Shown here one piece after another: positions 30,606-59,308 of a stretch of 64,000 nt of DNA. The notes beneath the pieces are model-generated. The model made no database searches, was not told the origin of the DNA, and worked only from the letters and a program-made list of their open reading frames with translations. The position numbers and the translations under genes are program-made. Each line of letters opens with the position of its first letter. Positions within the stretch are counted from its first letter, which is position 1. This DNA is from Longimicrobium sp. (GTDB taxonomy: Bacteria > Gemmatimonadota > Gemmatimonadetes > Longimicrobiales > Longimicrobiaceae). The stretch is from the NCBI GenBank assembly GCA_036377595.1, contig DASUYB010000105.1, positions 124,001 through 188,000 of the forward strand, in the 5' to 3' direction.

Positions 30606-30607
30606 GC

Positions 30608-31669: not shown

Positions 31670-31941
31670 CGGGCGGAAATGATATGAGGAAGGTCGGGCA
31701 TTGATACATACGCAATCTGCACTGTCAGTCGGTGTCGGACCAGAGCGTGCAGCCCTGCCCACCGTAGCCCATCCGCCTGCGGGGGTGGCGTGCCCGCCAC
31801 TCTGGAGCGACAGACATTCAGTTCTGCCGCAGAGCGAACGGTTTCTGCGCGCTCATTTTCGGTCGTCCCTCTGCGGGCACAAACAGGGCGGTCCTTTCCC
31901 TAAGCACAGGGGCTGCACCCGCGCCGGGAGAACACGGATCT

Positions 31942-32582: not shown

Positions 32583-32686
32583 CAGACGAAGCGTACACCT
32601 CAGCAGCGCAGTCGCCCCCTTCGAGGGTGGCCGCGCACCTCTCAGTGGTCGCTCCGTTTCTGCTCCACCTTAGATTCACCCCTAAA

Positions 32687-34768: not shown

Positions 34769-35411
34769 TCGCCACAATGCGAAGACGCGCGGGGCACCCC
34801 AGTGCTGGAGCGCCCCGGTGGCGTTCACCTGGTGAGTCTGTCCGTTCGCGGCGCGCACGCAACTCCCTCGCGAATGCGGCAAGCGCATTCGCGAAGGCGT
34901 GCGGACGTCGGTCGGATAATGCGTTCACCTCGCCCACGAGGCGCTTGATTGCCCGCCGCAGACCGCCTTCGTCGACGTAACCCGTCGCGTGGCCAACGTT
35001 GCGCCACGTGCGGGCCGGCTCCTCCAGCAGCCCCACTGCGAGGAGCACGCGCGTCCACGCGAGCAGTCGCCGTGGCGGCGGCAATGCCTCGCGCGTGCAC
35101 CAGCCCGCGAGCGTGCGTTCCCTCACCCCGAAAACCGCTGCCACATCGGTACTCAGGCCACCGTCTGCGGTCACTCCGCGGCCGCCCGGATGAGGCGTCA
35201 TCGCGTTGCCGGAAGCATACCTGGAGAGCTCCTCGAGCCGGCGTTTGAAGGGGCGCGCGTGCGCAGCACGCAAGCGGGCGACGAGCGCTTCCGGAGGAGC
35301 CTCGATCGGCAAGTCCACCAGTTCGCTCACTCCCCACTCCAGCAGGGGGACGGACTTCGACAGCTCCGTGGAAGAGTCGGTGACGCTTGATCTACCGAGT
35401 GCTTTCCTCAT
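34716..35411 (-). CDS. AraC-like DNA-binding protein
   Basis: 231 residues. The middle holds an AraC-type double helix-turn-helix: VAAVFGVRERTLAGW, PPPRRLLAWTRVLLAVGLLE, ARTWRNVGHATGYVDEGGLR and RAIKRLVGE. The N-terminal 80 residues are a short domain without a recognised ligand pocket. Probable transcriptional regulator. Its 3' end overlaps the membrane-protein gene tail-to-tail. On the other strand 35410-35610 is open (66 residues) but unsupported; 35412-35688 otherwise shows nothing. Confidence 0.65.
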   Translation of the reverse strand: MRKALGRSSVTDSSTELSKSVPLLEWGVSELVDLPIEAPPEALVARLRAAHARPFKRRLEELSRYASGNAMTPHPGGRGVTADGGLSTDVAAVFGVRERTLAGWCTREALPPPRRLLAWTRVLLAVGLLEEPARTWRNVGHATGYVDEGGLRRAIKRLVGEVNALSDRRPHAFANALAAFARELRARRERTDSPGERHRGAPALGCPARLRIVATIYAQCRSSKGRSGPYS

Positions 35412-35688
35412 GCGCGAGATGCCGCTGCAGTGGAATGGCCAAGGGCGCTACTCCAGCAGCGGTGGGTCGAACTCCGCGATGGATCCCTCGGTGCGACGCG
35501 ACCGTGACAAGGAATGGCATGGCCGCACATACCTCCGTGGGGCTTATAGTTGGTCCCCAGGGCAGACCATCGAGGGAGCCTACGAGGTGGAGTTTCGGTC
35601 TAAAGGCTAATGGGTAGGCGTCGAGACTGAGTGCCCTGGTACGCACGTCGTCCTGGGTGCGGCCGTTTGCATCTGGCAGAGTCCTGGG

Positions 35689-36780
35689 TCAAAGATTTCC
35701 GCCGGAGAAGTAATCCTCGATTGAGACTCCGTGGGCCGATGCGTTGCCCAACGCATCGTTGACTTGAAAGGAGCAGCAGAAGCACTGCACCTCATAGATG
35801 TACCACCATGCGTCCCCGGTTTCCTCGTCATGATCGCGCTCGACGAACAGCACGAGTGCGTTAACACCGCACACGGGGCACTTCCTCGCTTCGCGGACAT
35901 CATGCTCCCGCTCCAGAACTGAACGAGCGACATTCTCGTACCGCAGTCGATAGCGCTCATTGAACGCTTTGGCGATCGGGTGTGCCCGCATCGGGCTGGC
36001 GTAGGCCGCTCGACCGAGCTCCTTCAAGTAGGCTATTTGCCTGAGGTCATACCGACCTGCTGCGAAGTGCATCTCCACTTCAGAGAGAGGGTCGATGCCG
36101 GAGGCGAGTGGGGCATGGCGCCAGAATCCACCCATCGTACTGTACTGGGGCAATGCGACGACGGCAGAGACGAAGGGAAGGATGTACTCGCCCACGAGCT
36201 GATCCAGGGCCGGGTAAAGCAGAACGAACGTGCCCTCGTGGATCAGGTGATTGCGGAGCCGGGCCAGCTCCCGCAGCGTGTGCTCGTGTCGCGAGGCGAT
36301 CTGCTGCGCTACGCGTGCCGGCGAGTGCGCAACCAGCAGGTCGAGCACGTTGCCAAAGTTGAGCCTATGGACGTTCTTAGCCGGGCGTGAGAGCTGTCCG
36401 GCCGCGATCTCTTCCACCAGAAGATCCTTGCAGGTCAGCTCGGCGAAGTGTTGGAAGTGGAGGAGACACTCCGTGCTGGCGGCGGCATAATCATGGTTAT
36501 GATTGAACTCAATCGTTGGACGTTCCAGCTTGGTGTTATCGAAGAGATGAAGCGAAAGCCGCATTGTTTTGTAGGTCGAAAAATAAGCCTTTACCGCGCT
36601 CTCGAGGGTGAGCAGGGCGACGCTCTTGAGATGACGCTCCTGAGCGCCAGCAGCGAGATCGAAGCCGTCATTCGTCAAATTCCGCAGGGTAACCATCGGT
36701 TCGCTTTGGTTCCAGTGTGAACTGTCGTGGGCAGAATCTCCCAGTGGCTTCGTAAAGAAGTTCCGAGCCGGAATATACAC
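35689..36780 (-). CDS. HEPN-like protein with C-terminal zinc ribbon
   Basis: 363 residues (a shorter start at 36696 is possible). Residues 170-182 read LARLRNHLIHEG, an R-x4-H motif (R176, H181) in a long helical region, as in HEPN/Abi-type proteins. The C-terminus has a cysteine set CPVCGVNALVLF ... CFCCSF that looks like a zinc ribbon. HEPN proteins with such ribbons occur as RNA-targeting toxins or helper subunits in defence islands. The gene is clearly AT-richer than the chromosomal part, and its neighbours are relics and a SIR2 module. Confidence 0.55.
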   Translation of the reverse strand: MYIPARNFFTKPLGDSAHDSSHWNQSEPMVTLRNLTNDGFDLAAGAQERHLKSVALLTLESAVKAYFSTYKTMRLSLHLFDNTKLERPTIEFNHNHDYAAASTECLLHFQHFAELTCKDLLVEEIAAGQLSRPAKNVHRLNFGNVLDLLVAHSPARVAQQIASRHEHTLRELARLRNHLIHEGTFVLLYPALDQLVGEYILPFVSAVVALPQYSTMGGFWRHAPLASGIDPLSEVEMHFAAGRYDLRQIAYLKELGRAAYASPMRAHPIAKAFNERYRLRYENVARSVLEREHDVREARKCPVCGVNALVLFVERDHDEETGDAWWYIYEVQCFCCSFQVNDALGNASAHGVSIEDYFSGGNL

Positions 36781-36802
36781 TCCATCTCGCGCACCAACCT
36801 TC

Positions 36803-37173
36803 TCAACCCGGCGACCACGTCGTCCGCATACGCTGGGTGAGCGGCATCATCAGCTCAGCATCACGCGGCAGAGCCTCTTCGAGCTGCTCCACTGCGCGGA
36901 GGATCGCTCCACGCGCGCTCCCCTCGCCGAGTGGCCCGCGCGACGTATGCTTCGCTCCCGTTCCTTCCGGGTATGACTCAGGAGGTACGGCGGAGCGGAC
37001 TCGGTTGGACTCACCCACCCCCATTGACTCTTCCACCAAGTCGCGGCTTAACACAGCACGAAGCACCCGGCCAATCCGCCGGGACCTCGCCAGTCTGGCG
37101 CACCAGGTAGCGCAGCACTTCCTCTTGGGCAGCGCTCAGGCCCACGCCTGTCGGGAGCTGCCGCGATGCTCTT
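36803..37173 (-). pseudogene. Frameshifted copy of the 31073 winged-helix gene
   Basis: Read leftward, AAQEEVLRYLVRQTG matches the second repeat start of the 31073 gene (SQEEVLRYLVRQTG); after a frameshift MLRAVLSRDLVEESMGV matches VLRALLTRGLVEESRGW, and GAILRAVEQLEEALPRDAEL matches EAILRATEELERALPRGAEL. The first repeat and the linker are lost. It lies directly before the TPR/SIR2 pair. Confidence 0.7.
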
Positions 37174-37230
37174 GATGCAACCGTCTAGGCGATGCAATCT
37201 GCGCCGACTGGCCGCGCTCGACCAGACCAC

Positions 37231-38448
37231 ATGGCTCGGCGATTACTCCTGCTCGGTGATGTCGCGATTGTCCAACGGGGAGGCATCAAACAGCCGGTCT
37301 TTTTCGTCGGTGGAGCAACGTGGATCCTGGACCTTGACGCGCCCCTCCTGCCGGGCCCATTCCTCAAGCGTGGAGCTTTTTCGGGACACTCCTCGCGGGA
37401 GCGGGATGTGAGCTCGCTGGAGCAGTTCGCGGTAGACTCGAGCGCATCGAGGTACCGAGAGACGCTCGGAACACTCGGTTCCGAAGTGGGGGGTGGGGCG
37501 GGGCCGCCGCTTCCCCATTTTGCCGAGGCTCTCGCCCACATCGCGGAGGGGTATCGTCGGATCGGCGATATTCCGCGGGCGCTTCGTCTGTTCGGGACCT
37601 CCTTCTCCCTGTGGCGCCGTCTCGGACAGCGCAGCCGAATGTGCTGGTGCCTCTGGGGACTCGGCAGCACCCTCCGGGTAGTCGGCCGCTACCCTGAAAG
37701 CACGTACTGGCTGCGGCAGGCGTTCGACATCGCGCGTTCCTCGGGCGAGAGGCGGTGCGCGTTGTGGTCGGCCGCGGAGATTGCCGAGGTCGATCGCATC
37801 GTCGGGAATCGCCGCCGGGCGCTCGCTGCCCATTTTGACTTGATGGACGAGTTCTGCAAACTCGGCGACGAGCGCGGGGTCGCATGGGCCTATTCAGGAA
37901 TCGCGCAGATTTACCGAATGGAGGGAGAATTTGCCCGGGCGGCGCAGATGTTCTGGCGTGCTGAAATTCAGAGTGTCCTGATGGGGGATCCGGTGGGGGT
38001 TGCCTGGGCGCACCGAGGCCAATCGGAAGTCGCCAAAGAACGCCACGACCTCACCACCGCAGAGGGGATGGCGGCACGAGCGATCCAAGGATTCGAGTCG
38101 AAAGGCTACCCCACAGGGGTGGCATACGCGAAGAAGACGCTCGCGGAGATCCAGCTCGCGAGAGGGGACCTGATCTCCTCTCACGCGACGATCCGCTCCG
38201 CGATCGCAGACTTCAAGCAGGCAGGTGAAACTCGCGGCTATGCGCTCGCGCTCAAGACACTCGGTGACGTGCACCGAGAGAGTGAGGAGTTCTCGGAGGC
38301 GCTGCTTCAGTACCGAACAGCTCGGAGCCTGATCGGCGAAATGCGGTTGCGCCTGTCCACGAGCTTTGATCCGACGGCATCCTGGGTCGCCCTGCGCCGG
38401 CGGTTTGAGAAACGGCGCTTCTTTCACGGTGGGAGGAGGCCGGGTTGA
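37231..38448 (+). CDS. TPR-repeat partner of the SIR2 effector
   Basis: 405 residues from the ATG at 37231. From about residue 95 onward TPR hairpins follow one another (HFAELAHIAEGY-like text RRIGDIPRALRLFGTSFSLW; GVAWAYSGIAQIYRMEGEFA; GVAYAKKTLAEIQLARGDLI; GYALALKTLGDVHRESEEFS). The first 90 residues are unique. The stop overlaps the TTG start of the SIR2 gene (TTGA), so both are made together. A TPR protein coupled to a SIR2-TPR enzyme suggests a sensor or regulator for the effector, possibly a toxin-antitoxin-like relation. Confidence 0.7.
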   Translation: MARRLLLLGDVAIVQRGGIKQPVFFVGGATWILDLDAPLLPGPFLKRGAFSGHSSRERDVSSLEQFAVDSSASRYRETLGTLGSEVGGGAGPPLPHFAEALAHIAEGYRRIGDIPRALRLFGTSFSLWRRLGQRSRMCWCLWGLGSTLRVVGRYPESTYWLRQAFDIARSSGERRCALWSAAEIAEVDRIVGNRRRALAAHFDLMDEFCKLGDERGVAWAYSGIAQIYRMEGEFARAAQMFWRAEIQSVLMGDPVGVAWAHRGQSEVAKERHDLTTAEGMAARAIQGFESKGYPTGVAYAKKTLAEIQLARGDLISSHATIRSAIADFKQAGETRGYALALKTLGDVHRESEEFSEALLQYRTARSLIGEMRLRLSTSFDPTASWVALRRRFEKRRFFHGGRRPG

Positions 38449-40625
38449 TCGCGACTTTGTTCGGCGACCCTTCCCGTCCAAAGACATTCCTCGTGGGCGC
38501 TGGCATCTCGCGGGATGCTCCCGCCTCCCTTCCAACTGGGGCCGAGTTCTCGGCAGCGATCCTTGATGCCGTCGTCGCCGGAGATTCGTTCCTCGCGGCG
38601 GCCGTGGCTCCGCTGATGACAAAGCTGTGGGCGGGTGCGCTGGGTTGCCGCCTAGAGGTTTTGCTGGAGATCGCCAGGGACGGCCTCGGAGATGCCGTCG
38701 TGGGAATTACGGAATGCCTGCTGGGGGGCTCCCCCAACCAGTACCATTTCGAGCTCGCCGCGGCGCTGAACGCCGGTCACACAGTAGTGACTGTGAACTT
38801 CGACATGCTGATCGAAGCGGCGTACGAGGCGCTCTATGGCCCGCATGGCCTTCCAGTGGTCGCATCCACCGCGCATGGATGCGCATCGCTACTGCGGACT
38901 TGGCCTCCGCGAACCGGCTTGCTCTTCAAGATCCACGGGTCGCTGCGCGACACCCGGGGGAGGCGCGCGTGGGGCTCCATCCAGGCGACGCTTGCCTCAA
39001 TGAGCAACGGGCTTCCGGGCCCCAAGAAGAACCTGCTGCGAAAGGTACTACGCGATCACGACGTTGTGATCATGGGGTACAGCGGGATGGACGACTTCGA
39101 CATCACGCCGTGTCTTCGCTCCGACCTGCCGCACGCCCGGGTCCTCTGGATCCACCACGAGGCAACCCGAATGCGCCTCCGTTCCTCGACAGCCCTCGCA
39201 CGAGCCACCGCTTCCGCGTACCCGAGCACCACGATGGTCGCCCGGGTGCCGGAGGGACTGCTCGCGACCGGCAGAACGCGCGCCGTCGTGGGACGCATCC
39301 CCTTCTATCCGCGGGTCCCTACTGGACGCGGAACACACGGAGTTACGGTAGACTGGAAGCGCAAAATGGTACGGGCGATCGCCTCGTTTTCTCTCTCGCG
39401 CTATCAACGGCTGCGCTACGTCGCGAAGCTTCTGCAGCACAACGGACTGCTCGCCGAGGCCGAAGCGTGCTTCCTGGAGATCCTTCGTTCGGTTTCGGGG
39501 TTCGACCGCGCGACCACCCTCGACGACCTCGCACAGTGCAAGTACCTGCAGCGAGCGTTCGCCGAGGACCTTCGGCTCCGCGCTGAGGCGCGACGAAAAG
39601 CTCGCGCCGACCACAGCCGGAGCGCCGCCGTCTTGGTCGGGGGTACGTGGCTAGGTTCCGGCGAAAGCTACCGGAATATCGCGAATTACCGCTCCGCCCG
39701 TGCCGCGTTCGAACGGGCACTGGCGTGTCTTCCCCCTGATGGCGAGTTCACCAAGCGAGGGTATGCGCTCTCCGGCATCGCCGGCATCGACCGCATGAGG
39801 AGCCGGTTCCCGGAAGCCTACGATTCGTACCAGGCGGCGATCGCCTGCTTCAAGCGGAGCAGGCACTTGGCCGGAGCGCTCTACGCGGAATGGGGAATCG
39901 CCGAGGTGCAGAAGTACTGGGGAAACCTGGACCGTGCGATGCGCCACCATGAATCGGTGCACCGGTCTGCCGAAGCCATGGGGCATCGGACGCTCACCGG
40001 CGGGGCATTGTGGGGACGCGCGGAACTGCACCGCATACGCGCAGAGTTCGGAGAGGCTGCGAGCCTTTACGAAGAGGCGCTGGACCGGTTCCCGCCTGGC
40101 GATCTCGCGGGTTGCTCCTGGGTCAAGGAAGGCATCGCGCAGGTCAAGGCCGCGACGGGTAAGTCACCTATTCGGGAACTTACCGAGGCGGAGTCCGGCT
40201 TCGTGCATCTTAGAGCGACACTCGGGTTCCATGCGGTCCTCCTCGATCGGACGCTATTCCTTCTTCAGGAAGGTCGGCCGGCCGACGCCCGCGCGGAGCT
40301 CGGACGTGCCCGGGTGAACGAGCTGCCCCCCAGGGACCGGGCGAACTACTATGTCGTCGCCGGCCAGGCATACGGGATTCCCAGGGGTGAAGCGATGCTC
40401 CGGAAAGCCGAGAGGATTTACCGAAGGCTGGAAATGCACCACGCACAGGTCGGCGTGGGCATACTCCTCCTCGAGTCCCGTGGCGTGCTGTCGACCCACG
40501 ACGGAAACTTCGCCGCTGTGCGCCGCTTGGCGCGGGCGCACGACTACTCCGTAGAGCTACGTGCCCTATCCGCGCTCGCGCTCTCGGGCGGTGGGAAGTC
40601 GGGGTACAGGTTTCCTCTCTACTGA
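38445..40625 (+). CDS. SIR2-TPR protein, probable NAD-depleting defence effector
   Basis: 726 residues from a TTG at 38445. The N-terminal 250 residues are a SIR2-type NAD-binding domain: FLVGAGISRDAP (G18-S22), VVTVNFDMLIE (N118, D120), LFKIHGSLRD with the likely catalytic H164, and VIMGYSGMDDFDI. This is the prokaryotic defence sirtuin group (ThsA, DSR, SIR2-APAZ), which destroys NAD after phage sensing. From about residue 300 TPR hairpins fill the rest (LLQHNGLLAEAEACFLEIL; NYRSARAAFERALACLPPDG; RMRSRFPEAYDSYQAAIACF; YWGNLDRAMRHHESVHRSA). No membrane segment. The pairing with an upstream TPR gene does not match a system I can name. Confidence 0.8.
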   Translation: MIATLFGDPSRPKTFLVGAGISRDAPASLPTGAEFSAAILDAVVAGDSFLAAAVAPLMTKLWAGALGCRLEVLLEIARDGLGDAVVGITECLLGGSPNQYHFELAAALNAGHTVVTVNFDMLIEAAYEALYGPHGLPVVASTAHGCASLLRTWPPRTGLLFKIHGSLRDTRGRRAWGSIQATLASMSNGLPGPKKNLLRKVLRDHDVVIMGYSGMDDFDITPCLRSDLPHARVLWIHHEATRMRLRSSTALARATASAYPSTTMVARVPEGLLATGRTRAVVGRIPFYPRVPTGRGTHGVTVDWKRKMVRAIASFSLSRYQRLRYVAKLLQHNGLLAEAEACFLEILRSVSGFDRATTLDDLAQCKYLQRAFAEDLRLRAEARRKARADHSRSAAVLVGGTWLGSGESYRNIANYRSARAAFERALACLPPDGEFTKRGYALSGIAGIDRMRSRFPEAYDSYQAAIACFKRSRHLAGALYAEWGIAEVQKYWGNLDRAMRHHESVHRSAEAMGHRTLTGGALWGRAELHRIRAEFGEAASLYEEALDRFPPGDLAGCSWVKEGIAQVKAATGKSPIRELTEAESGFVHLRATLGFHAVLLDRTLFLLQEGRPADARAELGRARVNELPPRDRANYYVVAGQAYGIPRGEAMLRKAERIYRRLEMHHAQVGVGILLLESRGVLSTHDGNFAAVRRLARAHDYSVELRALSALALSGGGKSGYRFPLY

Positions 40626-40737
40626 CGGACTGAAGGAACGGCGCTGCCCCGCACCGGTGGCGCCACGTCAGTAGAACAAATGTGCTCGGCGCGCGCTCCA
40701 CGACTTGACGGGGGGCGCCGCTACCCGCGAGAGGACG

Positions 40738-41271
40738 ATGGCAGGACACAAGACGAAGCGTCTCACGGCGGAGAATTGGCTTGAGCCGGATCCCGTCTCC
40801 ACGCTTTTAGCGGTGGTGGACCGAAGGGACGGCTCCGTTCGTCCATTAGCCCCAGAGGACTATGTCCAGCCTGCGCTCCAACCACAGCTGACGTCGATGG
40901 TGCCGGAAGATGTCCACGATCTTTTCGAAGTAGCCAGAGGCGCGCTGGCTTACGGGTACTACTTTTACCCGCTCCTCACTATAGCGGCAGACCAGTGCGT
41001 CCGGGTGGCTGAGGCCGCCGCCAAGCTCAAGGCAGAAGATCTAGGCTGTCCGAAACGGATCTCGACCTTCAACGACCAGATCGACTGGCTGGTGAGCGCG
41101 GGTGCCATTTCCACGCGTGATCAGGAGTACTGGCACGGGCTGCGGTACTTACGAAACGAGAGCTCGCATCCGCGGTGCCAGCACATCTTCACGCCGGGTA
41201 TCGCGTTCAACACGTTTCATCATGTTGCCGATCTCGTGAACGGCCTGTTCGGCACCGCCCCTTCGGGATAA
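40738..41271 (+). CDS. HEPN-like (DUF4145-type) protein
   Basis: 177 residues, ATG at 40738 with GAGAGGA upstream. Mostly helical. GLRYLRNESSHPRC carries R139-x4-H144, the RNxxxH form of the HEPN motif (more exactly RNESSH), and the region FEVARGALAYGYYFYPLLTI resembles DUF4145-like HEPN proteins. It follows the SIR2 gene by 112 bases on the same strand and could be a third member of that module or an independent toxin. Confidence 0.55.
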   Translation: MAGHKTKRLTAENWLEPDPVSTLLAVVDRRDGSVRPLAPEDYVQPALQPQLTSMVPEDVHDLFEVARGALAYGYYFYPLLTIAADQCVRVAEAAAKLKAEDLGCPKRISTFNDQIDWLVSAGAISTRDQEYWHGLRYLRNESSHPRCQHIFTPGIAFNTFHHVADLVNGLFGTAPSG

Positions 41272-41307
41272 GCGACCGCACAGGTTGCTAGAGAGAACAA
41301 GAGCCAT

Positions 41308-41484
41308 GGACACCAACGGCCTCGCTGGCTTGATCGCGAGCGATGCGGGGATTCCCGATCTCGAACCGAGGATTACGCAGTCTTGCTTCTACCAGACCTC
41401 GACTACGACGCGCAGCTCGTCGCGATAAAGGAGCTGCTCGCGGGCCAAGCCGAGGCAGCGAAAGGGCGGCTTGATGCCGCGTGA
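41308..41484 (+). pseudogene. Third copy of the HEPN gene start (frameshifted)
   Basis: MDTNGLAGLIASDAGIPDLE matches the start of the 13454 gene (MDPDNLADLIARDAGLGIPE) minus two codons. A one-base loss in CCGAG-GATTACGC shifts the frame, after which LLLPDLDYDAQLVAIKELLA continues the match to a stop at 41482-41484. Dead fragment of about 175 bases. Confidence 0.8.
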
Positions 41485-41550
41485 GCGGGCTCAGCGGATG
41501 AGACTGGCCGAGGCCGCTGGGTTGTCACCCTCCTCCCGGTATCGCATTCA

Positions 41551-42387
41551 GTGCGACACCATCGCTTGCACCGGCTGGCCGAGGAAATCGAGATGGCGGA
41601 ATTTTCTTCCGTTTGGAGTTATTGGAAGTTTGCCCATGCCGTGCGGCGGGAGTGGAGGTTCACGCGGAATGCTGAGCAGACGGCCTTCCTCGAAGCCGTG
41701 CTTGCCACCAGCGAACGGCGGCGGGAAGTTCTGCCTGCAGGCAGTCTGGTCTTTCGCGCGCAGCTCGGCTGCGAGTGGCCTGCCGACGCCGAGGAGGAAG
41801 CCGAAGACCCCGGCCCACGCCCATTTCCGCCGGCGCGCATGAAGCCCCTCAGCGACCGCGCTTCGGAAGGTAGAGTCAATCCGCGAGGCATCCCCTGCCT
41901 CTACACCGCTACGCATGCCGAGACCGCGGCCGCCGAGGTTCGGCCGTGGATCGGAGCCTACGTTTCGGTTGCGCAGATGAAGATCGTTCGCGACATCACC
42001 GTGGTAAACTGTACATCGGACGACAAGCGGAACATGATCTATCTCAAGGAGCCATCACCCGCAGAGCGTGAGATTGCGGTGTGGAGGGACATAGACCGCG
42101 CGTTCGCCCAGCCCGTCGATCGGGACGACCAACTCGCCGAGTATGTCCCGACCCAGGTGATTGCCGAGATGTTCCGAGGCCAAGGACTGGATGGTGTTGC
42201 CTATCGAAGCTCGTTGGGGGACGGTCACAATATCGCCTTGTTTGATCTGGACGCTGCCGTCGTAATCAACTACACGGTCCACGAGGTTCGTGAGATCCGT
42301 TTCGACGTGCCGGAGGTTGCGAATCGTCGATATGTTAGGGAGCACTATCCGCAACTCACCCAGAATGGTGATAGCGCGGACCTCTGA
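41551..42387 (+). CDS. RES-domain toxin-like protein
   Basis: 278 residues from a GTG at 41551 (alternative ATG 41593). The RES core is clear: GRVNPRGIPCLYTATHAETA followed by AAEVRPW, with the conserved arginine, tyrosine and glutamate. RES proteins use NAD, either degrading it or ADP-ribosylating a target, and are usually toxins beside an Xre antitoxin. No antitoxin gene is present next to it; the DNA just upstream is the HEPN relic. The N-terminal FSSVWSYWKFAHAVRREWRF and LVFRAQLG are typical of the longer RES subgroup, so the gene looks full length. It is the last gene before the transposon end. Confidence 0.8.
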   Translation: MRHHRLHRLAEEIEMAEFSSVWSYWKFAHAVRREWRFTRNAEQTAFLEAVLATSERRREVLPAGSLVFRAQLGCEWPADAEEEAEDPGPRPFPPARMKPLSDRASEGRVNPRGIPCLYTATHAETAAAEVRPWIGAYVSVAQMKIVRDITVVNCTSDDKRNMIYLKEPSPAEREIAVWRDIDRAFAQPVDRDDQLAEYVPTQVIAEMFRGQGLDGVAYRSSLGDGHNIALFDLDAAVVINYTVHEVREIRFDVPEVANRRYVREHYPQLTQNGDSADL

Positions 42388-42497: not shown

Positions 42498-42648
42498 AGG
42501 TACCAACTAATTTCGGATGGCCAGAACAGAACGGGAGGTTGAGTGTCGATTCAGTTACCAACTTTCAGGTCCGTTGACGCCACGTGGCTCCGCCGTAAGT
42601 TGTTGATAAACCAGGGGAGCTAGTTACCAACTTTATTTCCCTGGCACA
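42498..42648. mobile_element. Left end of the Tn7-like transposon with three TnsB-type sites
   Basis: Read on the minus strand from 42648 inward: TGT, eight bases, AATAAAGT, four bases, AACT. Tn7 ends have the same TGT-N8-AATAAAGT-N4-AACT spacing. The core AAGTTGGTAACT occurs at 42622-42634 and 42553-42565, and a diverged copy (TTAGTTGGTACC) at about 42498-42513. Three spaced sites over about 150 bp is the layout of the Tn7 left end. A 5-bp target duplication would be CCACG at 42649-42653. Confidence 0.75.
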
Positions 42649-42836
42649 CCACGGTGGCCTTGGGTGGAAGACTGGCGATCCCATGAACGGACGATCCGAT
42701 GATCCACCGAGGCTCGATCCCGCCCCTGCGCAACCGCCGCGTCGTTACGCGTCATCCCTGAGTGGTATCCGGCCGTGTGCTCCCGCATGGGAGCGCGCGG
42801 CCGTTCTCGTTCCACGCGACCACCGGAGGAGGCCCC

Positions 42837-43133
42837 ATGCGAAAACTGACGCTGGACTGCGACGCGCTGCGGGTGGACTCGTTCGAAACCTCGCCCGAGA
42901 GGGCGCACAAGACCGGGACGGTACGCGGCCACGCGGAGGCGGGCATCTTCTGGACGGTGGTGCGGGAGATCACGAAGACGCAGGTGAGCGTACAAGGCTA
43001 CAACTCGTGCGACCCGGACGTGTTCACCTGCGGCGACACCTGCGGTGATCGCTGCCACACGCTCCCCGCCACGTGCATGACGTGCACGCTGGACGTCTGC
43101 TGCCCTCAGCAGACGGGTGACGGCGGGCTCTGA
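42837..43133 (+). CDS. RiPP-like precursor peptide (pinensin-type leader), copy 1
   Basis: 98 residues with GGAGGAGG just upstream. The leader RKLTLDCDALRVDSFET matches the 'LxxxxLRVESFET' leader of pinensin-like lanthipeptide precursors common in Bacteroidota and Gemmatimonadota. The C-terminal half is cysteine- and threonine-rich (SCDPDVFTCGDTCGDRC, CMTCTLDVCC), suited to thioether or disulfide crosslinks. No modifying enzyme is encoded in this window. It is the first gene right of the transposon end. Confidence 0.7.
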   Translation: MRKLTLDCDALRVDSFETSPERAHKTGTVRGHAEAGIFWTVVREITKTQVSVQGYNSCDPDVFTCGDTCGDRCHTLPATCMTCTLDVCCPQQTGDGGL

Positions 43134-43184
43134 TATGAGCTGTCGCTTGGGCCGAAACCAGAATCGGAACGAGGAGGAGCCGAG

Positions 43185-43412
43185 ATGAAGAAGATGACGC
43201 TGAGCCTGGACGCGCTCCGGGTGGAGAGCTTCGAGACCGACGCCGACCACCCCGCGCGCGGCACCGTCCGCGGCCACGATGGCTCGGACGTGGTGATCGA
43301 CGGCAGCAACGACATCAGTTGCGACACCTGCCAGACCTGCGACGACTCGCAGTGCGACTCATGCTGGTTCAACACCTGCACCTGCCACAGGTACTGCGTC
43401 GGCGAAGCGTGA
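43185..43412 (+). CDS. RiPP-like precursor peptide (pinensin-type leader), copy 2
   Basis: 75 residues, ATG at 43185 behind AGGAGGAGC. Leader KKMTLSLDALRVESFETDA, then a cysteine-rich core (SCDTCQTCDDSQCDSCWF, TCTCHRYC). It is clearly a paralogue of the peptide 51 bases upstream, with a different core. A GC hairpin follows. Export or modification genes must lie elsewhere. Confidence 0.75.
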   Translation: MKKMTLSLDALRVESFETDADHPARGTVRGHDGSDVVIDGSNDISCDTCQTCDDSQCDSCWFNTCTCHRYCVGEA

Positions 43413-43584: not shown

Positions 43585-45501
43585 ATGAGCAGGCCCCAGC
43601 GAAACGACCCGTGCCCGTGCGGAAGCGGAAAGAAGTACAAGGCGTGCTGCATGGGCGTCGATCGCGACATCGACCGCACCCTGCGCGTGGTGGGCGGCAT
43701 GCTTTCGCACGGGGAGGCACCGTGGAATCCGGCCGCGCGCGCGGCCGACGCGTGGGAAGCGGACGTGGTGCCGTTGGCCGGCGGGTTCCGCGACGAGCCC
43801 GACGCTGCTCCCGCCGTGGTGATGGTCGGGGCGGCGGGGTTCATCCTGCGCGCGGACGTGCTCGGCAACCGGCCGACCGACGTGCAGGGGCGTGCCCGGG
43901 CGGTGGCCGAGGCGGTGCTGGCGGCCGGACGCCAGGTCGGCGTGCTGCCCCCGACGCTGCACGTGCGCGACGAGCCGCTCGCGGGGGCGCTGGGTCCGGA
44001 GCTGGAGCCGCGCGGGATCGCGGTGGTGGCCGCACCCATGGCGGAGCTGGACGACGCGATCCAGAGCTCGATCGAGCACCTGATGGACGACCGTGCCCTG
44101 GCGTTCATGCGCACGCTCGGCTCGTGGCGCGAGACGGAGACTTCGCCAGCGGAGCTGGCGGCGTTCCATGCCGCCGCGGCGGCATTCTACCGCACCGCGC
44201 CATGGAAGCGCGTCAGCTCGGACGAGGTGCTGGTGATGACCACCGAGGGCGCGGGCACCTTCCTGGCGGTGGTGATGGGGAGCGGCGGGATGGAATTCGG
44301 GCTGGTGCTCTACTCCAACGAGGCGGACCTCGACGACCTGTACGAGCACGACCACGAGCCGATGGCGGCGCTGCGGCAGATGCGCGGTTACGCGCTGACG
44401 GTCGGCTTCGAGCGCCGGTCGCGGCTTCCCCGCCCGATGCAGCGCGAGGTGGCCTCGGCGGGGTGGGAGATCGCCGGCGACGCCGCGTATCCCATGCTGT
44501 ACGGGCTGCGCCTGCCGGGCTTTCGCGTGACCGCCGAGCACGTGCGGCTGATGACGGGCGGGCTGGCGGCGGTGGCGTTCGATGTCGGCGGCGCCGAACT
44601 GCCGGCCACTGTGCGCGAGATCCTGGACCGCATGGTGATCCGCGTCGAGCGGGAGGACGAAGACGAGCTTCCCTGGGCGGAGCTCGAGGAGGCGCACGTC
44701 ATCGGCCCCACCGGCCCGAATGCGGACCCCGGAGCCGTGCTGCCGTACGTGTGGGCCGCCGACATGAACGAGTACGAGCGGCTGCAGAGCGCCGAACTGG
44801 AGCGGGCCGGCCGGTTCGAAGGCTGGCTGCGGGAGCGCGGGCTATCGAAGGCCGCGCAGCGGCGGCACCTGCGCAACGCGCGCACGTGGTGCGAGTACCT
44901 GGCCGGGATGGCCGTTCCCGCGCAGGCGGCCACCGAGATCGATCTGCGCAACTACCTGTACGACTGGTTCCCGCGAAAGGAAGCGCTGCCGAAGGACGTG
45001 GAGCGCGTGATCGACCAGTCGCTGCTCGTGTTCTTCGGTTGGCTGGAGGCTGAGGAGGGAATCGGGTATCCGTGGGCCGCGGCCGTGCTCCACGAGTTCG
45101 GCCGCGTGTCCGGCGAGCGCGGCCCGGCGCCGGAGGGCGCGTACTGGGAAGCGGAGGTGCGGGAGTGGCGCGGGATGTTCTTCGGAGACCTGGACGACCG
45201 CATGATGCTCCCGGACCGCGACCTGCCGGGCACCGAGCACGGATGGCCGGCCATGATGAACGCCGAGATCGCCCATCTCCACAACGAGTTGCAGCGCCGG
45301 TGGCTGATCTGGTACGACGAGGCGGTGCGCGGCGGGGTGACGGACCTGGAGGAGCTCTACGTGACGCTGGCGCTGCGCCAGCGCGGCTGGGAGAACACGC
45401 CGCATCCGCAGGTGGGCGGACGCACGCCGCGGCAGGTCGTGGCCGCGTACGAGCAGGAGCAGGAAGGAACGCCGCAGCTGTCGTTCGCGGACTTCGGGTG
45501 A
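43585..45501 (+). CDS. Large protein with N-terminal SEC-C zinc motif
   Basis: 638 residues from the ATG at 43585. It opens with the SEC-C motif RNDPCPCGSGKKYKACC (residues 5-21), the metal-binding tail known from SecA and from many otherwise unknown proteins. The long remainder has no recognised domain; it includes acidic stretches (EREDEDELPWAELEE) and a helical region with RRHLRNARTWCEYLAGMAVP, faintly like the N-terminal SAM-like domain of phage integrases. Function unknown. A clear terminator follows. Confidence 0.75.
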   Translation: MSRPQRNDPCPCGSGKKYKACCMGVDRDIDRTLRVVGGMLSHGEAPWNPAARAADAWEADVVPLAGGFRDEPDAAPAVVMVGAAGFILRADVLGNRPTDVQGRARAVAEAVLAAGRQVGVLPPTLHVRDEPLAGALGPELEPRGIAVVAAPMAELDDAIQSSIEHLMDDRALAFMRTLGSWRETETSPAELAAFHAAAAAFYRTAPWKRVSSDEVLVMTTEGAGTFLAVVMGSGGMEFGLVLYSNEADLDDLYEHDHEPMAALRQMRGYALTVGFERRSRLPRPMQREVASAGWEIAGDAAYPMLYGLRLPGFRVTAEHVRLMTGGLAAVAFDVGGAELPATVREILDRMVIRVEREDEDELPWAELEEAHVIGPTGPNADPGAVLPYVWAADMNEYERLQSAELERAGRFEGWLRERGLSKAAQRRHLRNARTWCEYLAGMAVPAQAATEIDLRNYLYDWFPRKEALPKDVERVIDQSLLVFFGWLEAEEGIGYPWAAAVLHEFGRVSGERGPAPEGAYWEAEVREWRGMFFGDLDDRMMLPDRDLPGTEHGWPAMMNAEIAHLHNELQRRWLIWYDEAVRGGVTDLEELYVTLALRQRGWENTPHPQVGGRTPRQVVAAYEQEQEGTPQLSFADFG

Positions 45502-45531
45502 GCACCGGCCGGTGTGAATGGTGACGAAGAG

Positions 45532-45557
45532 CGGCCCGCGATCGACCTCGCGGGCCG
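45532..45557. terminator. Terminator after the SEC-C gene
   Basis: CGGCCCGCGA and TCGCGGGCCG around TCGACC, then TTTCG. It stands 30 bases past the stop and may also serve the convergent hydrolase gene. Confidence 0.7.
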
Positions 45558-45581
45558 TTTCGCGTTCCAGGTGGCGTGGAG

Positions 45582-46301
45582 CTACGCGCCCGCCGCGCGC
45601 GAGACCGGCTCCTCGTCGCCCAGCCGCTCGAGGATGAGCCCGGCGGTGGTGAGGTGGTCGCGCGCCAGGTTGTGGCCCGCGTCGAGCAGCACCGTCTCCG
45701 CCACGCCGGCGGGGAGCGCGGGGGCCAACGCGGCGGGATCGTCGCGGCCGTTGACGACGAGGATCCGCATTCCGCGGAGCGCCTGCAACTCGGGGAGGAC
45801 GGGGACGTCGCCCGGACGCTCGTGGTGGCCGAAGAGATCGGCCCAGCGGAAGCGGAAGCTGCCCAGCCGCGCGGGCGAGAGGAGCGCGAGCAGGCGCACG
45901 CGTTGCCGCAGCCCAGGATCCATCCGCCGCGCGACGAACGGCAGCAGGTCCGCGCCGCGCGAGAGGCCGATCATCATCACCGAATCGGCATCCCACGCTT
46001 GGAGATAGTGTCGCAGCACAGCCTCAACGTCGCGTGTGACGCGCGCAGGCGTGCGGCCGAAGAGCAGATAGGTGCGCGCCTTCAGGCCGACGGTGGAGAT
46101 GCCGTGCTGCGCCAGCTCGCGTGCCAGGCCGCGCACCAGCATCGCCCAATTGCCGTCTCCCGTGAAGACGAAGGCGAGGGTGCGTCCCGGCTCCTCCGCG
46201 CGCTCCTCGACCAGCGGGAGGTGGCGCAACGCGCGGGGCTGCTCGTCGCGCCGGCGGCGGAGCAGCCTACGGATCGCATCGAACGAAGAAGAAAGGGGCA
46301 C
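45582..46301 (-). CDS. VirJ-like alpha/beta hydrolase
   Basis: 239 residues. The text follows the VirJ/AcvB domain: LAFVFTGDGNWAML, GISTVGLKARTYL, the nucleophile region MMIGLSRGADLLP (serine in GLSRG) and the late DAGHNLARD histidine. AcvB/VirJ proteins are periplasmic and some hydrolyse lysyl-phosphatidylglycerol. No signal peptide is obvious here, so its place is unclear. It faces the SEC-C gene and lies downstream of a terminator from the phosphoesterase. Confidence 0.75.
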   Translation of the reverse strand: MPLSSSFDAIRRLLRRRRDEQPRALRHLPLVEERAEEPGRTLAFVFTGDGNWAMLVRGLARELAQHGISTVGLKARTYLLFGRTPARVTRDVEAVLRHYLQAWDADSVMMIGLSRGADLLPFVARRMDPGLRQRVRLLALLSPARLGSFRFRWADLFGHHERPGDVPVLPELQALRGMRILVVNGRDDPAALAPALPAGVAETVLLDAGHNLARDHLTTAGLILERLGDEEPVSRAAGA

Positions 46302-46374
46302 GCGCGCTCCCGTTCGCGGTAATCGTCATCTCCCGTAAAAGCAGGCGGCGTACCAGCATCCATGGGAAAGAACC

Positions 46375-46402
46375 GAGGCGGGCCCGACTCCGGGCCCGCC
46401 TC
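46375..46402. terminator. Terminator after the metallophosphoesterase
   Basis: A 12-bp perfect stem, GAGGCGGGCCCG with its complement, around a 4-base loop ACTC, 26 bases past the leftward stop at 46429. Confidence 0.8.
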
Positions 46403-46428
46403 GCATCACATCTCAAATATCCAGGAAA

Positions 46429-48345
46429 CTACGCCGCGACGCTCGCCTCGGGCTGCTTGCCGTCGGACGGCGGGCGGTCGATGGTGAGGCGGTCGATCAC
46501 CCGCACCTTCGGCTCGTGGACCGCGTCGAAGTAGGGGGTGCCGGCGGGGGCGCTCGGGTGGAACTTCCACTTGCCCGGGCCGTCGACGCCGTACGACCAC
46601 AGGTGCAGCTCGCCCGTCTTCGCGATCTTCAGCCGCACGAAGTTCTTGTACGTCTCCAGGTGCTGCGCCGAGAACGCCTCGTTGTAGTTCAGCGCGGGCA
46701 GCAGGAACAGGCTCAGCAGCAGCGACCCCAGGATCCCGCCCAGCCCCACCATCCCCACGATGAAGAGCAGCGCGTTGCCGAGCGAGTTGACGTTCGCCAG
46801 CGGCTGCGACAGGAGCCAGGTGAGCCCCACCGCCAGCCCCAGGTGCGCGAAGCCGTGGACCCCGCCGACCCCCACCTTCACCGCCGTGCGCAGCTTCTCG
46901 TAGCGCAGCAGGAGCTTCGAGCGCTCCACGTCGGGCGTGGTGAACGCGATCATCCCCGTCACGAACAGGAGCGAGAAGGCGATGACGGCGGGGGAGTACT
47001 TGGCCACGTTCCAGAAGCTGGCCGCCACGTCCATCCAGCGCACGCCATCCTGGTGCACCTCCTCGATGAAGCTGGTCTGGATGTATGCCGAGGTCTTGCT
47101 GGCGCTCTGGAGGAACCAGGCGAAGAGCGCGTACATGGCGCCCAGGAAGATGGCGAACGACGGGTTGTGCCAGAACGAGAAGATCGCGCCCCACTTGATG
47201 CCGGTGGACGCCTTCAGGTCGGGGTAGAGCGGGCCGCGCTGCCAGGACTCCTTCGTGTCCGCCGGCGTCTCCAGGTCCAGCGTCTCGGGAAGGAGCTGCG
47301 TGCCCAAGAGGTACGCGCCGCCGCCTCCCGCGGTGATCTTGTGGCGCGCGGTGCCGGACTCGCCGCCGGTGCTGTAGCGCGCGTAGTGGTGCAGGTCGCC
47401 CGTGAGCGTCAGCGCGAGCTGGGCGCCGGTGGGCGCGATCACCGTCTTCTCGAAGTACGCCAGGTTGTCGAACGCGTCCACGTCGCTGCGGGTGTGCGCC
47501 CACGCGGGCTCGGGGGTGCAGAGGATCACGCGGTCGCCCTCGCGCAGCTCGCGTGCGACCTGGCAGAAGTACTCGATCTGCGGGCGGTCGATGTCGGACT
47601 GCAGCTGCACGTCGACGCCGAACACCCACCAGCGGTGCGGCAGCCGCAGCGCCCAGTAGCTGCGCGACTGCCGCGTGCGCCACGCGCCGATCCAGCGGCG
47701 CTGGCAGAACTGGCGGATGAAGCTGGTGAGCCCGTCGTACCAGTCGTGGTTGCCGGGGATGGCGAACAGGTGCGGCGGGTCGGCGTCGGTGACCCAGGGG
47801 AGCGCCGCCTCGTACGGCCCGGCCAGGCGGTTGGCGTACTCGTCGCGGCTGGCGGTGGGATACACCTGGTCGCCGCCCATCACCAGCACGTGGCCGCGGC
47901 GGGTGCGCTCGCCGTCGATGGCGCCGTCGGCGCGCACCGCCTCCTCGCCGAACGTCGGCGCGGGGAGCTCGGGGCGGCCGAGGAGCCAGGCGACGGTGTA
48001 GGTGGGATCGAACCCGTCGCCCAGGTCGGCCACGAAGTCGAGCCAGAAGTCGCCGTCGGTCTCGACATGGGCGTCGTAGGTGAAGATGCGGCCGTCGGCG
48101 GTGTCGGGACCGGCCTCGTCGGCGTCGTGCTGGTGCAGCGCGGCCAGCGTCTCGCGGCGGTCGGCGTATTCGCCGAACGCCGCCGACAGCACCGCGCGCA
48201 CGGCGGTGACGGCCAGCTGCCCCGGCGCCAGCCAGCGCACCATCTTCGCGGGCGTGAAGGGGAGCTCGGCCGGGCCGGCCGGCGCCGCGATCTTGCCGAC
48301 GGGCACCTTTTCGGGGGCGGTCGTGGCGGATGTGACTTCGCTCAT
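46429..48345 (-). CDS. Membrane-bound calcineurin-like metallophosphoesterase
   Basis: 638 residues. Metal motifs of the family are visible: VMGGDQVYPTAS, FAIPGNHDWYDG, and late TLTGDLHHYARYS. The first 350 residues form the catalytic domain. The C-terminal part has several membrane helices (FLGAMYALFAWFL; YSPAVIAFSLLFVTGMIAF; LGLAVGLTWLLS; GNALLFIVGMVGLGGILG). Substrate unknown; such proteins are often annotated only as phosphoesterases. The ATG at 48345 lies behind TCCCTCCAATG-type sequence on the minus strand (CCCTCC) with no perfect Shine-Dalgarno. Confidence 0.85.
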   Translation of the reverse strand: MSEVTSATTAPEKVPVGKIAAPAGPAELPFTPAKMVRWLAPGQLAVTAVRAVLSAAFGEYADRRETLAALHQHDADEAGPDTADGRIFTYDAHVETDGDFWLDFVADLGDGFDPTYTVAWLLGRPELPAPTFGEEAVRADGAIDGERTRRGHVLVMGGDQVYPTASRDEYANRLAGPYEAALPWVTDADPPHLFAIPGNHDWYDGLTSFIRQFCQRRWIGAWRTRQSRSYWALRLPHRWWVFGVDVQLQSDIDRPQIEYFCQVARELREGDRVILCTPEPAWAHTRSDVDAFDNLAYFEKTVIAPTGAQLALTLTGDLHHYARYSTGGESGTARHKITAGGGGAYLLGTQLLPETLDLETPADTKESWQRGPLYPDLKASTGIKWGAIFSFWHNPSFAIFLGAMYALFAWFLQSASKTSAYIQTSFIEEVHQDGVRWMDVAASFWNVAKYSPAVIAFSLLFVTGMIAFTTPDVERSKLLLRYEKLRTAVKVGVGGVHGFAHLGLAVGLTWLLSQPLANVNSLGNALLFIVGMVGLGGILGSLLLSLFLLPALNYNEAFSAQHLETYKNFVRLKIAKTGELHLWSYGVDGPGKWKFHPSAPAGTPYFDAVHEPKVRVIDRLTIDRPPSDGKQPEASVAA

Positions 48346-48465
48346 TGGAGGGAAAGTGGATCGATTGTGGAGGGAGGATGGCGCGGGAGGAGGCGCCGCT
48401 CACACGTATGTTTCTCTGCGAGAGGCGGATAGGCAAGGCTTTCGATCGAAAACCGCCGCACTTCG

Positions 48466-48963
48466 TCAGGAAGGAGGAAGCTCCAGATCGGCGATCAGGC
48501 CGGTTTCAGGATCGAAGATCTCGAAACCGCGAGACGAGGCAGCCCGGCGAAGCTTCTCGTCGGAGCAGACGAACGAGATGGTTTCCCCCGGGACCAGGCT
48601 CTGGAGCCATTCGGCGGTGCAGATGTGAAGCGTGTCCGCGGCACCGACGCCGCGCTCGCGCAAGGTGTGCAGCGCCGCGAGCGTGGCGTCGTACACGAAC
48701 CTCGGCAGCGGGACGACGAAGAACCGGGTGCCGAGATCGCCGAGAAAGTCGTTACGGGCAGTCTGATAGGTACGGGTGGAGATCTGCTCCTTTCGCCAGA
48801 GCTTGGCGAAGCTGGCCATGGTCTCTACCGCGACAAGATCGGAGATGAAGAGTGAGCCGTGCAGGCGGCGAAAGGCCGCGTTCACGGTGTCCGTCCCCTT
48901 CTCCGGGATGTATGCCTTGATGACTGCGCTCGCATCGAGGAAGTACACGTCCGCGTTGTTCAT
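48466..48963 (-). CDS. PIN-domain ribonuclease toxin (VapC-like)
   Basis: 165 residues from the ATG at 48963. The PIN acidic residues are in place: YFLDASAVIKAY, VAVETMAS, GAADTLHICTA and FVCSDEKLRRAA. PIN toxins cut tRNA or rRNA and are held by a co-expressed antitoxin. The start overlaps the stop of the small gene upstream (ATGA), the normal antitoxin-first order. Confidence 0.85.
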   Translation of the reverse strand: MNNADVYFLDASAVIKAYIPEKGTDTVNAAFRRLHGSLFISDLVAVETMASFAKLWRKEQISTRTYQTARNDFLGDLGTRFFVVPLPRFVYDATLAALHTLRERGVGAADTLHICTAEWLQSLVPGETISFVCSDEKLRRAASSRGFEIFDPETGLIADLELPPS

Positions 48964-49136
48964 GAGAACAGGCGAATGAGCGCGGCGAGCCACCACGGAC
49001 GGCGGCGACCGGCAATTCGGGGCGGCCGCGGTGTACCGCTGGGGATGCGAACGCCGGCCTCGGCGAGACGCCGGTTGCGCTCCGCGGTCCGGTCGTCCAG
49101 CGGCATGGTATCCTGTGGCGTCACGGTCTCCGGCAT
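48960..49136 (-). CDS. Small protein upstream of the PIN toxin, probable antitoxin
   Basis: 58 residues from the ATG at 49136, behind GGAGGAGAGTC. No family recognised. It is not an ordinary VapB: there is no AbrB or ribbon-helix-helix domain, and the C-terminus is basic and aromatic (RRRPWWLAALIRLFS), which could fold as a toxin-binding amphipathic helix. The antitoxin role is inferred from the four-base overlap with the toxin. Confidence 0.5.
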   Translation of the reverse strand: MPETVTPQDTMPLDDRTAERNRRLAEAGVRIPSGTPRPPRIAGRRRPWWLAALIRLFS

Positions 49137-49234
49137 GACTCTCCTCCCCCAGGATCGTATGGTCGCGATGTTCCGGGAACGTTGTCTCAACCCGTTCAGG
49201 CCGTCAAGTCATCCGAAGCTGAACGATAAAAACA

Positions 49235-49268
49235 CGCCACCCGCGGAGCGCTTGCTCCACGGGTGGCG
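49235..49268 (-). terminator. Rho-independent terminator of the beta-lactamase-like gene
   Basis: CGCCACCCG with CGGGTGGCG, plus inner GGAGC/GCTCC, around GCTT. On the minus strand a T-rich run (GTTTTTATC) follows the stem, a complete intrinsic terminator. Confidence 0.85.
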
Positions 49269-49290
49269 AGTTGGGACAGGCCGGATTCGA

Positions 49291-50589
49291 TCAGTCCACC
49301 GTCTTCGCGCGGGGTTCGACGTCGAAGTCGTCGGCGGCCACGGCCACGCGGTCGTTCACGCGTCGGCGGAGCGCCATGATGGTGTTGGGCGCGCGCGGCT
49401 GGTACACGCGGTTGCTGAGCAGCACCGACCAGGTGTGGCGCTCGGGGTCGATCCAGATCGACGTCCCCGTGAAGCCGGTGTGGCCGAACGACGCCTGCGA
49501 CGCCTTCACCCCGAACCCGCCGCTGCCGTTGGGGCCCGGCGTGTCCCACCCCAGCGCGCGGGTGCCGGCGCCCGGCTGGCGCGCGGTGAACATCCGCACC
49601 GTCTCCTCGCGGAAGACGCGCACGCTGTCCAGCTCGCCGCCGTTGGCCAGCATCGCCGCGAAGCGACCCAGGTCGTGCGCGGTGGAGAAGAGCCCCGCGT
49701 TGCCCGCCACGCCGCCCAGCGCGCGGGCGATGGGGTCGTGCACCAGCCCCTGCACCGGCTCGTCGTTCTCGTCGCGCAGCGTGGGCGCGCAGGTCTGGCA
49801 TCCCGCGCCGGGGAGGTAGGTGGTCGCGCGCATCTTCAGCGGGCCGTACACGCGGCGGTCCAGCAGCCGGAACAGCGGCTCGCCGGCGGCGCGCTGCGCG
49901 GCGGCGAAGAGCACGTTCATCCCCACGTCGCTGTACACCACCGCCTCGCCCGGCTCGCGCACCAGCGGGGTGCGCAGGAGCTGGCGCCACGCCGCGTCGG
50001 GGGTGGCGGCGTCCAGGGCCACGCCCGCGGGGAGCCCGGAGGTGTGGGTCAGCAGGTGGCGGATCGTCACCCGCTCCTTCGCGCCGCCCGAGAACTCGGG
50101 GAGGTAGCGCGACACGGGCGCGTCCAGGTCCATCTTCCCGTCTTCCACCAGCAGCATCACCGCCGGCGTGGTGGCCAGGACCTTGGTGAGCGAGGCCAGG
50201 TCGTACACGGTGCGGTCCGCGTCGACCTTCGCGGCCGACGCGCTCCAGCCGATGCGGCCGATGCCGCGCTCGAGCACCGTCTGGTCCTCGCGCCCGATGG
50301 CGAGCGCCGCGCCGGGGAAGGCGCCGGCGCGCACCTGCGCCCACACCGCAGCCTCGGCCTCGTCGAGCGGGGCCAGCGCGAGCTTGCGCGTCTTCGCCAC
50401 CTCGTGCGCGGCTGCGACGTCGGCGCGCGGGGCCGTGGCGTTCGCGGTGAGGCGGCGCGTGACGGCGGCCTCGTCCACCGTGGCGGCCGCGCGGGTGCTC
50501 GTCGCGATGGCGCCGCCGTAGGCCAGCGTGGCCACGGCCGCGGCGATCAGCAGCGACTTCGGATCAGCCTGACGACGATGTCTATCCAT
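49291..50589 (-). CDS. Class C beta-lactamase-like serine hydrolase, exported
   Basis: 432 residues. An N-terminal hydrophobic segment (SLLIAAAVATLAYGGAIATS) suggests export. The catalytic SxxK is in YDLASLTKVLATT, the Y-x-N equivalent in VYSDVGMN, and the KTG-like box is HTGFTG. This is the beta-lactamase/transpeptidase-like (AmpC/EstB) family, which also includes esterases and D-peptidases; the HTG in place of KTG favours a non-lactamase role. Good intrinsic terminator downstream. Confidence 0.85.
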   Translation of the reverse strand: MDRHRRQADPKSLLIAAAVATLAYGGAIATSTRAAATVDEAAVTRRLTANATAPRADVAAAHEVAKTRKLALAPLDEAEAAVWAQVRAGAFPGAALAIGREDQTVLERGIGRIGWSASAAKVDADRTVYDLASLTKVLATTPAVMLLVEDGKMDLDAPVSRYLPEFSGGAKERVTIRHLLTHTSGLPAGVALDAATPDAAWRQLLRTPLVREPGEAVVYSDVGMNVLFAAAQRAAGEPLFRLLDRRVYGPLKMRATTYLPGAGCQTCAPTLRDENDEPVQGLVHDPIARALGGVAGNAGLFSTAHDLGRFAAMLANGGELDSVRVFREETVRMFTARQPGAGTRALGWDTPGPNGSGGFGVKASQASFGHTGFTGTSIWIDPERHTWSVLLSNRVYQPRAPNTIMALRRRVNDRVAVAADDFDVEPRAKTVD

Positions 50590-50775
50590 TCACGCACCTC
50601 CATCCGGAGGACGTCCAGCGTACCCGTCCTTGACAGTACGATCTGTAACCCGTTGTGGTTGCACATCTTACAACCTGCGTACACGAAATGTAGCAGAAGG
50701 CTTCCAACGGCTGTACCCTTGCCTCCCAGATCTTCACCGGCCGCTAATCTTTCGTTCAGGGATGAACTGATGGTT

Positions 50776-50859
50776 TCACACAGAGGTCACAGAGACGAAA
50801 AGAGAGGCACGGAGAACTCAGCGCGGTCCTCTGTGCCTCTTCTTTTCCCCTCTGTGTGA
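50776..50859. repeat. Intergenic hairpin element, family member A
   Basis: Outer arms TCACACAGAGG and its complement, inner arms AAAAGAGAGGCAC / GTGCCTCTTCTTTT. Lies between the 50589 start and the 50871 stop. Related to members at 51665, 53065 and 55412. Confidence 0.8.
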
Positions 50860-50870
50860 TTCGTTTCTTC

Positions 50871-51641: not shown

Positions 51642-51664
51642 CTCGATACGATCAACGGATTTGT

Positions 51665-51742
51665 CTCACGCAGAGGGCGCAGAGGACGCAGAGAGCCCGG
51701 CACGACGTCTTTCCTCTGCGACCTCTGCGGCCTCTGCGTGAG
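51665..51742. repeat. Intergenic hairpin element, family member B
   Basis: CTCACGCAGAGGGCGCAGAGG facing CCTCTGCGGCCTCTGCGTGAG. Lies between regulator and kinase genes; arms are built of short CAGAGG-type units. Confidence 0.8.
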
Positions 51743-51752
51743 GATTTTCATC

Positions 51753-52931: not shown

Positions 52932-53064
52932 GGTGCGACGGATCGGCGGCGTAGCGGGGAATCTAGCGCCGCGCGGTCTCCCGTCACCCGCGCGGGCGCG
53001 AGGGCCGTCACCGGCGGCGTGAGTCCGTTGGGCGGCGGTGTAGATCAAAACGAGGAAGAAAAAT

Positions 53065-53150
53065 GATCACACGGAGGGAACGGAGGGAACGGAGGTGGCC
53101 ACGTCGCCGCACCGTCATCCCTCCGTTTCCTCCGCTCCCTCCGTGTGATC
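53065..53150. repeat. Intergenic hairpin element, family member C
   Basis: GATCACACGGAGGGAACGGA facing its complement ending in CCTCCGTGTGATC; units of GGAACGGAG. Between the kinase start and the M3 peptidase stop. Confidence 0.8.
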
Positions 53151-53171
53151 CCTTCTTCTCCTTGAAAAGCC

Positions 53172-59303: not shown

Positions 59304-59308
59304 AAGCA

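Follow-up and report, generated by a model that had tools for sequence, protein, structure and literature searches.

Genes at the locus

The window, i.e., the whole 64,000-bp stretch of DNA analysed here (C105:124001-188000 of the 7.2-Mb Longimicrobium genome G000), opens with a set of transposition genes on the + strand. Positions 1-438 hold the 3′ portion of tnsA, which in full covers C105:123665-124438 and encodes 257 aa; it was recognised by the Pfam TnsA N and C domains and by similarity to Tn7 TnsA (1f1z, E 4.6e-30). It is followed by tnsB at 357-2615, encoding a DDE transposase (Tn7 TnsB 7pik, E 3e-78) of 752 aa when counted from the first GTG; the actual start may be later. In alignments, the E/D/K catalytic residues of TnsA line up, and D328, D417 and E454 of TnsB are invariant. 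Next come tnsC (2612-4102), encoding an AAA+ regulator (Tn7 TnsC 8glu, E 4e-86; Pfam AAA_22/TniB), and tnsD (4102-6003), encoding a putative target selector of 633 aa with a TniQ and a TnsD DNA-binding domain (Pfam TnsD, E 2.3e-43; Tn7 TnsD 8glu, 5.8e-17). The cysteine/histidine motifs of TnsD are kept, and its AlphaFold model reaches fair confidence (mean pLDDT 79, pTM 0.52). Adjacent tnsA, tnsB and tnsC with a tniQ/tnsD gene are a mark of the Tn7 clade. A search of the genome with TnsE_C, run without a positive control, gave no match. CRISPR-guided transposition (a CAST) was also considered and rejected: the element has no clustered direct repeats of ≥20 nt, and the scanned ORFs contain no Cas domain save a weak type IV Cas6 match (E 0.0011), which leaves neither an array nor a convincing Cas gene.

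Domain searches show that the cargo, also on the + strand, is rich in restriction and other defence-like genes. D12 methyltransferase, Eco57I-like methylase, AAA and McrBC-type restriction genes occupy 7008-14266, and a DsbA-like thioredoxin and a 1291-aa outer-membrane-barrel protein are encoded at 17974-22799. The stretch from 28479 to 42387 encodes an LTD-metallo-beta-lactamase protein, a second McrC-like ORF, and TPR, SIR2-TPR and RES-domain proteins. The two McrC-like ORFs lie at 11955-13442 and at 32061-32579, the latter being short and possibly a remnant.

The two ends of the element

The original prediction for this DNA placed the far end of a Tn7-like element at 42498-42648, and its terminus is borne out letter by letter. 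Starting at 42648 and going inward, one reads TGT GCCAGGGA AATAAAGT TGGT AACT, that is, TGT-N8-AATAAAGT-N4-AACT. This outermost part (42622-42648, - strand) comprises TGT-N8 and TnsB site 1 (AATAAAGTTGGTAACT, 42622-42637), in the same register as in Tn7 and in the right ends of glmS-attached relatives. The two additional cores that had been noted are present as well, one perfect (42553-42563) and one with a single mismatch (42498-42508); they belong to TnsB site 2 (CTGAAAGTTGGTAACT, 42553-42568) and site 3 (AAATTAGTTGGTACCT, 42498-42513), both on the - strand. All three sites were defined by site matches and a matrix. With up to one mismatch, AGTTGGTAACT has three matches in the window, all within one 150-bp stretch, compared with 0.17 expected from shuffles, and none of 100 shuffles reached three. 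The exact 11-mer occurs only four times in the 7.2-Mb genome, two copies per element end and in inverted orientation, while a reversed control pattern occurs once. Because of this excess over shuffles and the rarity of exact copies, the cores at 42498-42648 are not due to chance, and the prospect that such repeats would recur at many unrelated chromosomal sites did not materialise.

Extending the contig to the left of the window reveals the matching end. On the tnsA side, 622 bp before the window, TGTCCCAAACAAATAAGGTTGGTAACT begins at C105:123378; its terminus reads TGT-N8-AATAAGGTTGGTAACT, and two further TnsB sites follow at exact 20-bp steps (C105:123378-123444, + strand). These right-end sites are on the strand opposite to those of the left end: the + strand copies of AGTTGGTAACT are at C105:123414 and 123434, shortly before tnsA, and the left-end pair is on the - strand. 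A matrix built from the six TnsB sites scores its own sites at 23-32, and nowhere else in 101 kb does it exceed 11.7; since it was trained on these same six sites, only the gap to the next match is informative. Both boundaries therefore carry inverted, TGT-ended arrays of TnsB sites, as in the Tn7 clade, and a Tn7-clade transposon of 43,271 bp with tnsABCD and cargo (C105:123378-166648) is present in full, the feature at 42.6 kb being its far (left) end. The idea of one mobile unit stands; its size had been put at 42.6 kb, short of the 622 bp that precede the window. GC content is 64% within the element and 71% in both flanks, with steps at both boundaries. About 100 bp into the element from its right end is a terminator-like hairpin (L003:7478-7505; C105:123478-123505). 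Another was spotted by eye at a similar right-end place in a glmS-attached element of the same genus (L160), and such hairpins may end transcription coming from the target gene.

Outside both ends is a shared 10-bp sequence, CACCACGGTG, which contains CCACGG. One copy of this 6-mer flanks the left end at 42649-42654 and the other lies outside the right end at C105:123372-123377. The target duplication of Tn7 is 5 bp, and a 5-bp CCACG had been predicted here. A CCACG does lie beyond the other end. If the ends are taken as TGT/ACA, however, the flanks have the 6-mer CCACGG in common, and a 5-bp duplication is obtained only by moving one end by a single base. The length may be 5 or 6 bp.

Insertion beside dnaN

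The gene adjoining the right end is dnaN (TIGR00663, 2.8e-90), which is essential for DNA replication and is preceded by dnaA, which was called from sequence and position. The right end faces dnaN, its TGT starts 16 bp past the dnaN stop, and dnaN is left intact. A related genome without the insertion was found, as the original prediction had envisaged: in the congener G312, the right-flank genes (window 43592 onward) start about 135 bp past dnaN, uninterrupted by any element, and the matching DNA covers most of 43592-62295. G286 has the same gene order at lower identity. As the right-flank genes directly follow dnaN in a congener, the element at dnaN is an insertion. An empty site aligned across the exact junction was found in none of 20 family members, in all of which the DNA downstream of dnaN is too divergent and gene order alone is kept.

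The surroundings of the insertion have further features of their own. Between the left end and a SEC-C gene, 42762-43400 contains two tandem small ORFs that are missing from that place in G312. Their N-termini are leader-like and resemble each other (MRKLTLDCDALRVDSFET / MKKMTLSLDALRVESFET), their tails are rich in cysteine, the family recurs elsewhere in the genome, and by their sequences they look like precursors of peptide natural products. In two congeners, dnaN fragments of 60-90 bp lie about 1.4-2.2 kb downstream of dnaN (G273:C105:136066-136152, L062; G400:C68:266-323, L052), hinting that this region has been repeatedly rearranged. Exceptional DNA conservation of the dnaN 3′ end was considered and set aside, as it is moderate only (89% compared with a gene average of 80%; rank 84 of 385 windows).

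Relatives and the glmS site

Relatives were collected by a TnsB-profile scan of 84,980 species, from which the 80 closest TnsB loci were taken. In the fetched DNA of these 80 loci dnaN was never found, while glmS lies directly upstream of a recognisable right end in at least 33 of them. The distance from the glmS stop to the right-end TGT, as measured by script with G400 included, is 22-27 bp in 24 of 34 cases, in the same orientation as at dnaN; larger values (40-45) mostly reflect the script choosing a TGT one site (20 bp) too far in. Two of the 80 loci, L087 and L096, lie within comM, which was recognised by eye from the protein. In the TnsB tree, the window element is grouped with the glmS element of G400 and with G362 (support 100), in a tree for which the tool warns of long branches. 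The G362 match is a fragment on a 3.35-kb contig and cannot be placed, and a match in G021 is a distant Tn7-like locus. Neither the order (154 genomes) nor the phylum (about 395 genomes) yielded a second dnaN-attached element.

Among the Tns proteins, TnsD is the most divergent between the window element and the G400 glmS element, at 26% identity versus 35-41% for TnsABC. On sequence grounds, such divergence is as would be expected of a changed selector, though it falls short of proof. A search of genome contigs found no close relative of this TnsD. A homologue 35% identical to it is encoded at L159:6226-8160 (G400:C83), on a contig without tnsABC, where it adjoins a PD-(D/E)XK nuclease gene and SIR2-like genes. 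In G000 itself, glmS lies at C88:62406-64235 (L164) and no Tn7 end follows its stop. The 3′ end of glmS is present once more about 8 kb downstream (C88:54138-54326; aa 545-607, 75% identical), with an intact RNLAKSVTVE stop and no Tn7 end; it is possibly the trace of an earlier insertion at glmS. Likeness between the dnaN site and the glmS site is not above that of shuffled sequence, so the dnaN site is no obvious pseudo-glmS site, and this idea was dropped.

Proposed targeting of the dnaN 3′ end

The position of the element, its orientation and its sparing of an essential gene match TnsD-type homing, and we consider it likely that the TnsD of this Tn7-clade transposon homes to the dnaN 3′ end. 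We infer that TnsD reads this sequence because of the insertion geometry, because no other selector was recognised and because relatives show the same geometry at glmS. In the proposed mechanism, TnsB would bind the three spaced left-end sites and the three tandem right-end sites, and excision would be the work of TnsA together with TnsB. At the target, TnsD would bind to the conserved 3′ end of the dnaN coding sequence and, via TnsC, would steer insertion to a fixed short distance downstream, 16 bp past the stop. This would put the right end next to dnaN and leave the gene intact. Several points count against dnaN homing: the distance from the stop is 16 bp compared with 22-27 bp at glmS, no relative could be aligned over the precise junction, the duplication is 6 bp with symmetric TGT ends whereas Tn7 makes 5, the TnsE search had no control of known outcome, and a single insertion (n = 1) bears on site specificity.

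As the element lies behind dnaN and most of its traceable relatives lie behind glmS, it probably carries a changed aiming protein. The fuller reading, which we favour with more reserve than dnaN homing as such, is that homing was retargeted from glmS to the dnaN 3′ end by a TnsD C-terminal domain with new DNA specificity, placing 43 kb of defence-like cargo beside dnaA-dnaN.

Alternatively, a TnsD of the glmS type or another ordinary kind may have arrived at dnaN accidentally or by a pathway that is untargeted or linked to replication (TnsE-like), making the position incidental. With only a single dnaN example found, a rare off-target insertion is possible, and Tn7 does have a second pathway, which runs through TnsE (PMC11406308). 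Against this stand the site 16 bp past a stop codon, the Tn7 orientation and the preservation of an essential gene. The search for TnsE, which lacked a positive control, brought up no such gene, the glmS site of the genome has no Tn7 end, and the 3′ ends of dnaN and glmS are unlike each other. On balance, we regard an incidental position as unlikely.

The unity of the island can also be questioned. Nesting of Tn7-like islands is possible, and the cargo here is long and mosaic, so a short Tn7-like core could have been mistaken for a large element if the repeats at 42.5 kb were remnants of another element at the same site. Both ends, however, share a TnsB site whose exact 11-mer is found nowhere else in the genome, no internal TnsB site scores near the end sites, CCACGG is common to the flanks and GC steps at both boundaries, which makes a composite origin very improbable. 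The chance that unrelated pieces were joined by misassembly or contamination is smaller still, and close to negligible: this is a draft genome of 208 contigs with 4.8% estimated contamination, but the element lies within one contig of 242 kb, and in G312 its two flanks adjoin each other.

Homing of TnsD to dnaN remains the preferred reading. In nature, TnsD proteins serve as sequence-specific guides by which large DNA is inserted harmlessly behind essential genes, and a dnaN-homing TnsD, if confirmed, would make a new safe site available, one in a gene that to our knowledge is present in essentially all bacteria. It would also bring mobile cargo close to dnaA-dnaN, a region that usually has the highest gene dosage.

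Comparison with known systems

The closest model is Tn7 of E. coli (TnsABCDE, attTn7 at glmS). Both elements encode homologous TnsA, B, C and D with the TnsA/TnsB catalytic residues kept; both have a TGT-N8 terminus, three spaced left-end sites and tandem right-end sites at 20-bp steps; and in both the right end faces the 3′ end of the target gene. In a plasmid copy of the Tn7 right end, TGT is followed by ATAAAGTC..AAACT, in the register of the window element. Unlike Tn7, the window element lies at dnaN, 16 bp after the stop, instead of at glmS; it has three right-end TnsB sites rather than four, no detected TnsE, a duplication of 6 bp or an offset 5 bp, and other cargo.

Insertion guided by TniQ/TnsD at genes other than glmS is known from Tn7017 (parE), from CASTs at tRNA genes and from Tn6022 (comM) (PMC11406308). 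CASTs have CRISPR components, whereas no CRISPR array and no convincing Cas gene were found in the window element. Sites of Tn7-like elements named in the same review are glmS, yhiN, comM, parE, tRNA genes, guaC, yciA, ffs and rsmJ; dnaN is not among them (PMC11406308). The main text of two surveys does not mention dnaN either (PMC8649781, PMC10293859), and their supplementary tables might list it. No published dnaN attachment site for Tn7-like elements was found in the literature searched. The element is of a well-known kind, and its dnaN attachment site appears to be new.

Cyanobacterial glmS-attached elements (L110, L134, L135) share the outer TnsB site of the window element, AATAAAGTTGGTAACT, letter for letter and in the same register, but differ in their glmS target and in TnsB, which is 32-35% identical to that of the window. 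The G400:C200 element (L160), from the same genus, is together with G362 the closest TnsB branch (TnsB 41%, TnsC 36% and TnsA 35% identical). It differs in its insertion 24 bp after glmS, in a tnsD that lies upstream of tnsABC and is 26% identical, and in having four TnsB sites. This glmS-using sister element and the window element form a natural pair for studying how TnsD specificity changes.
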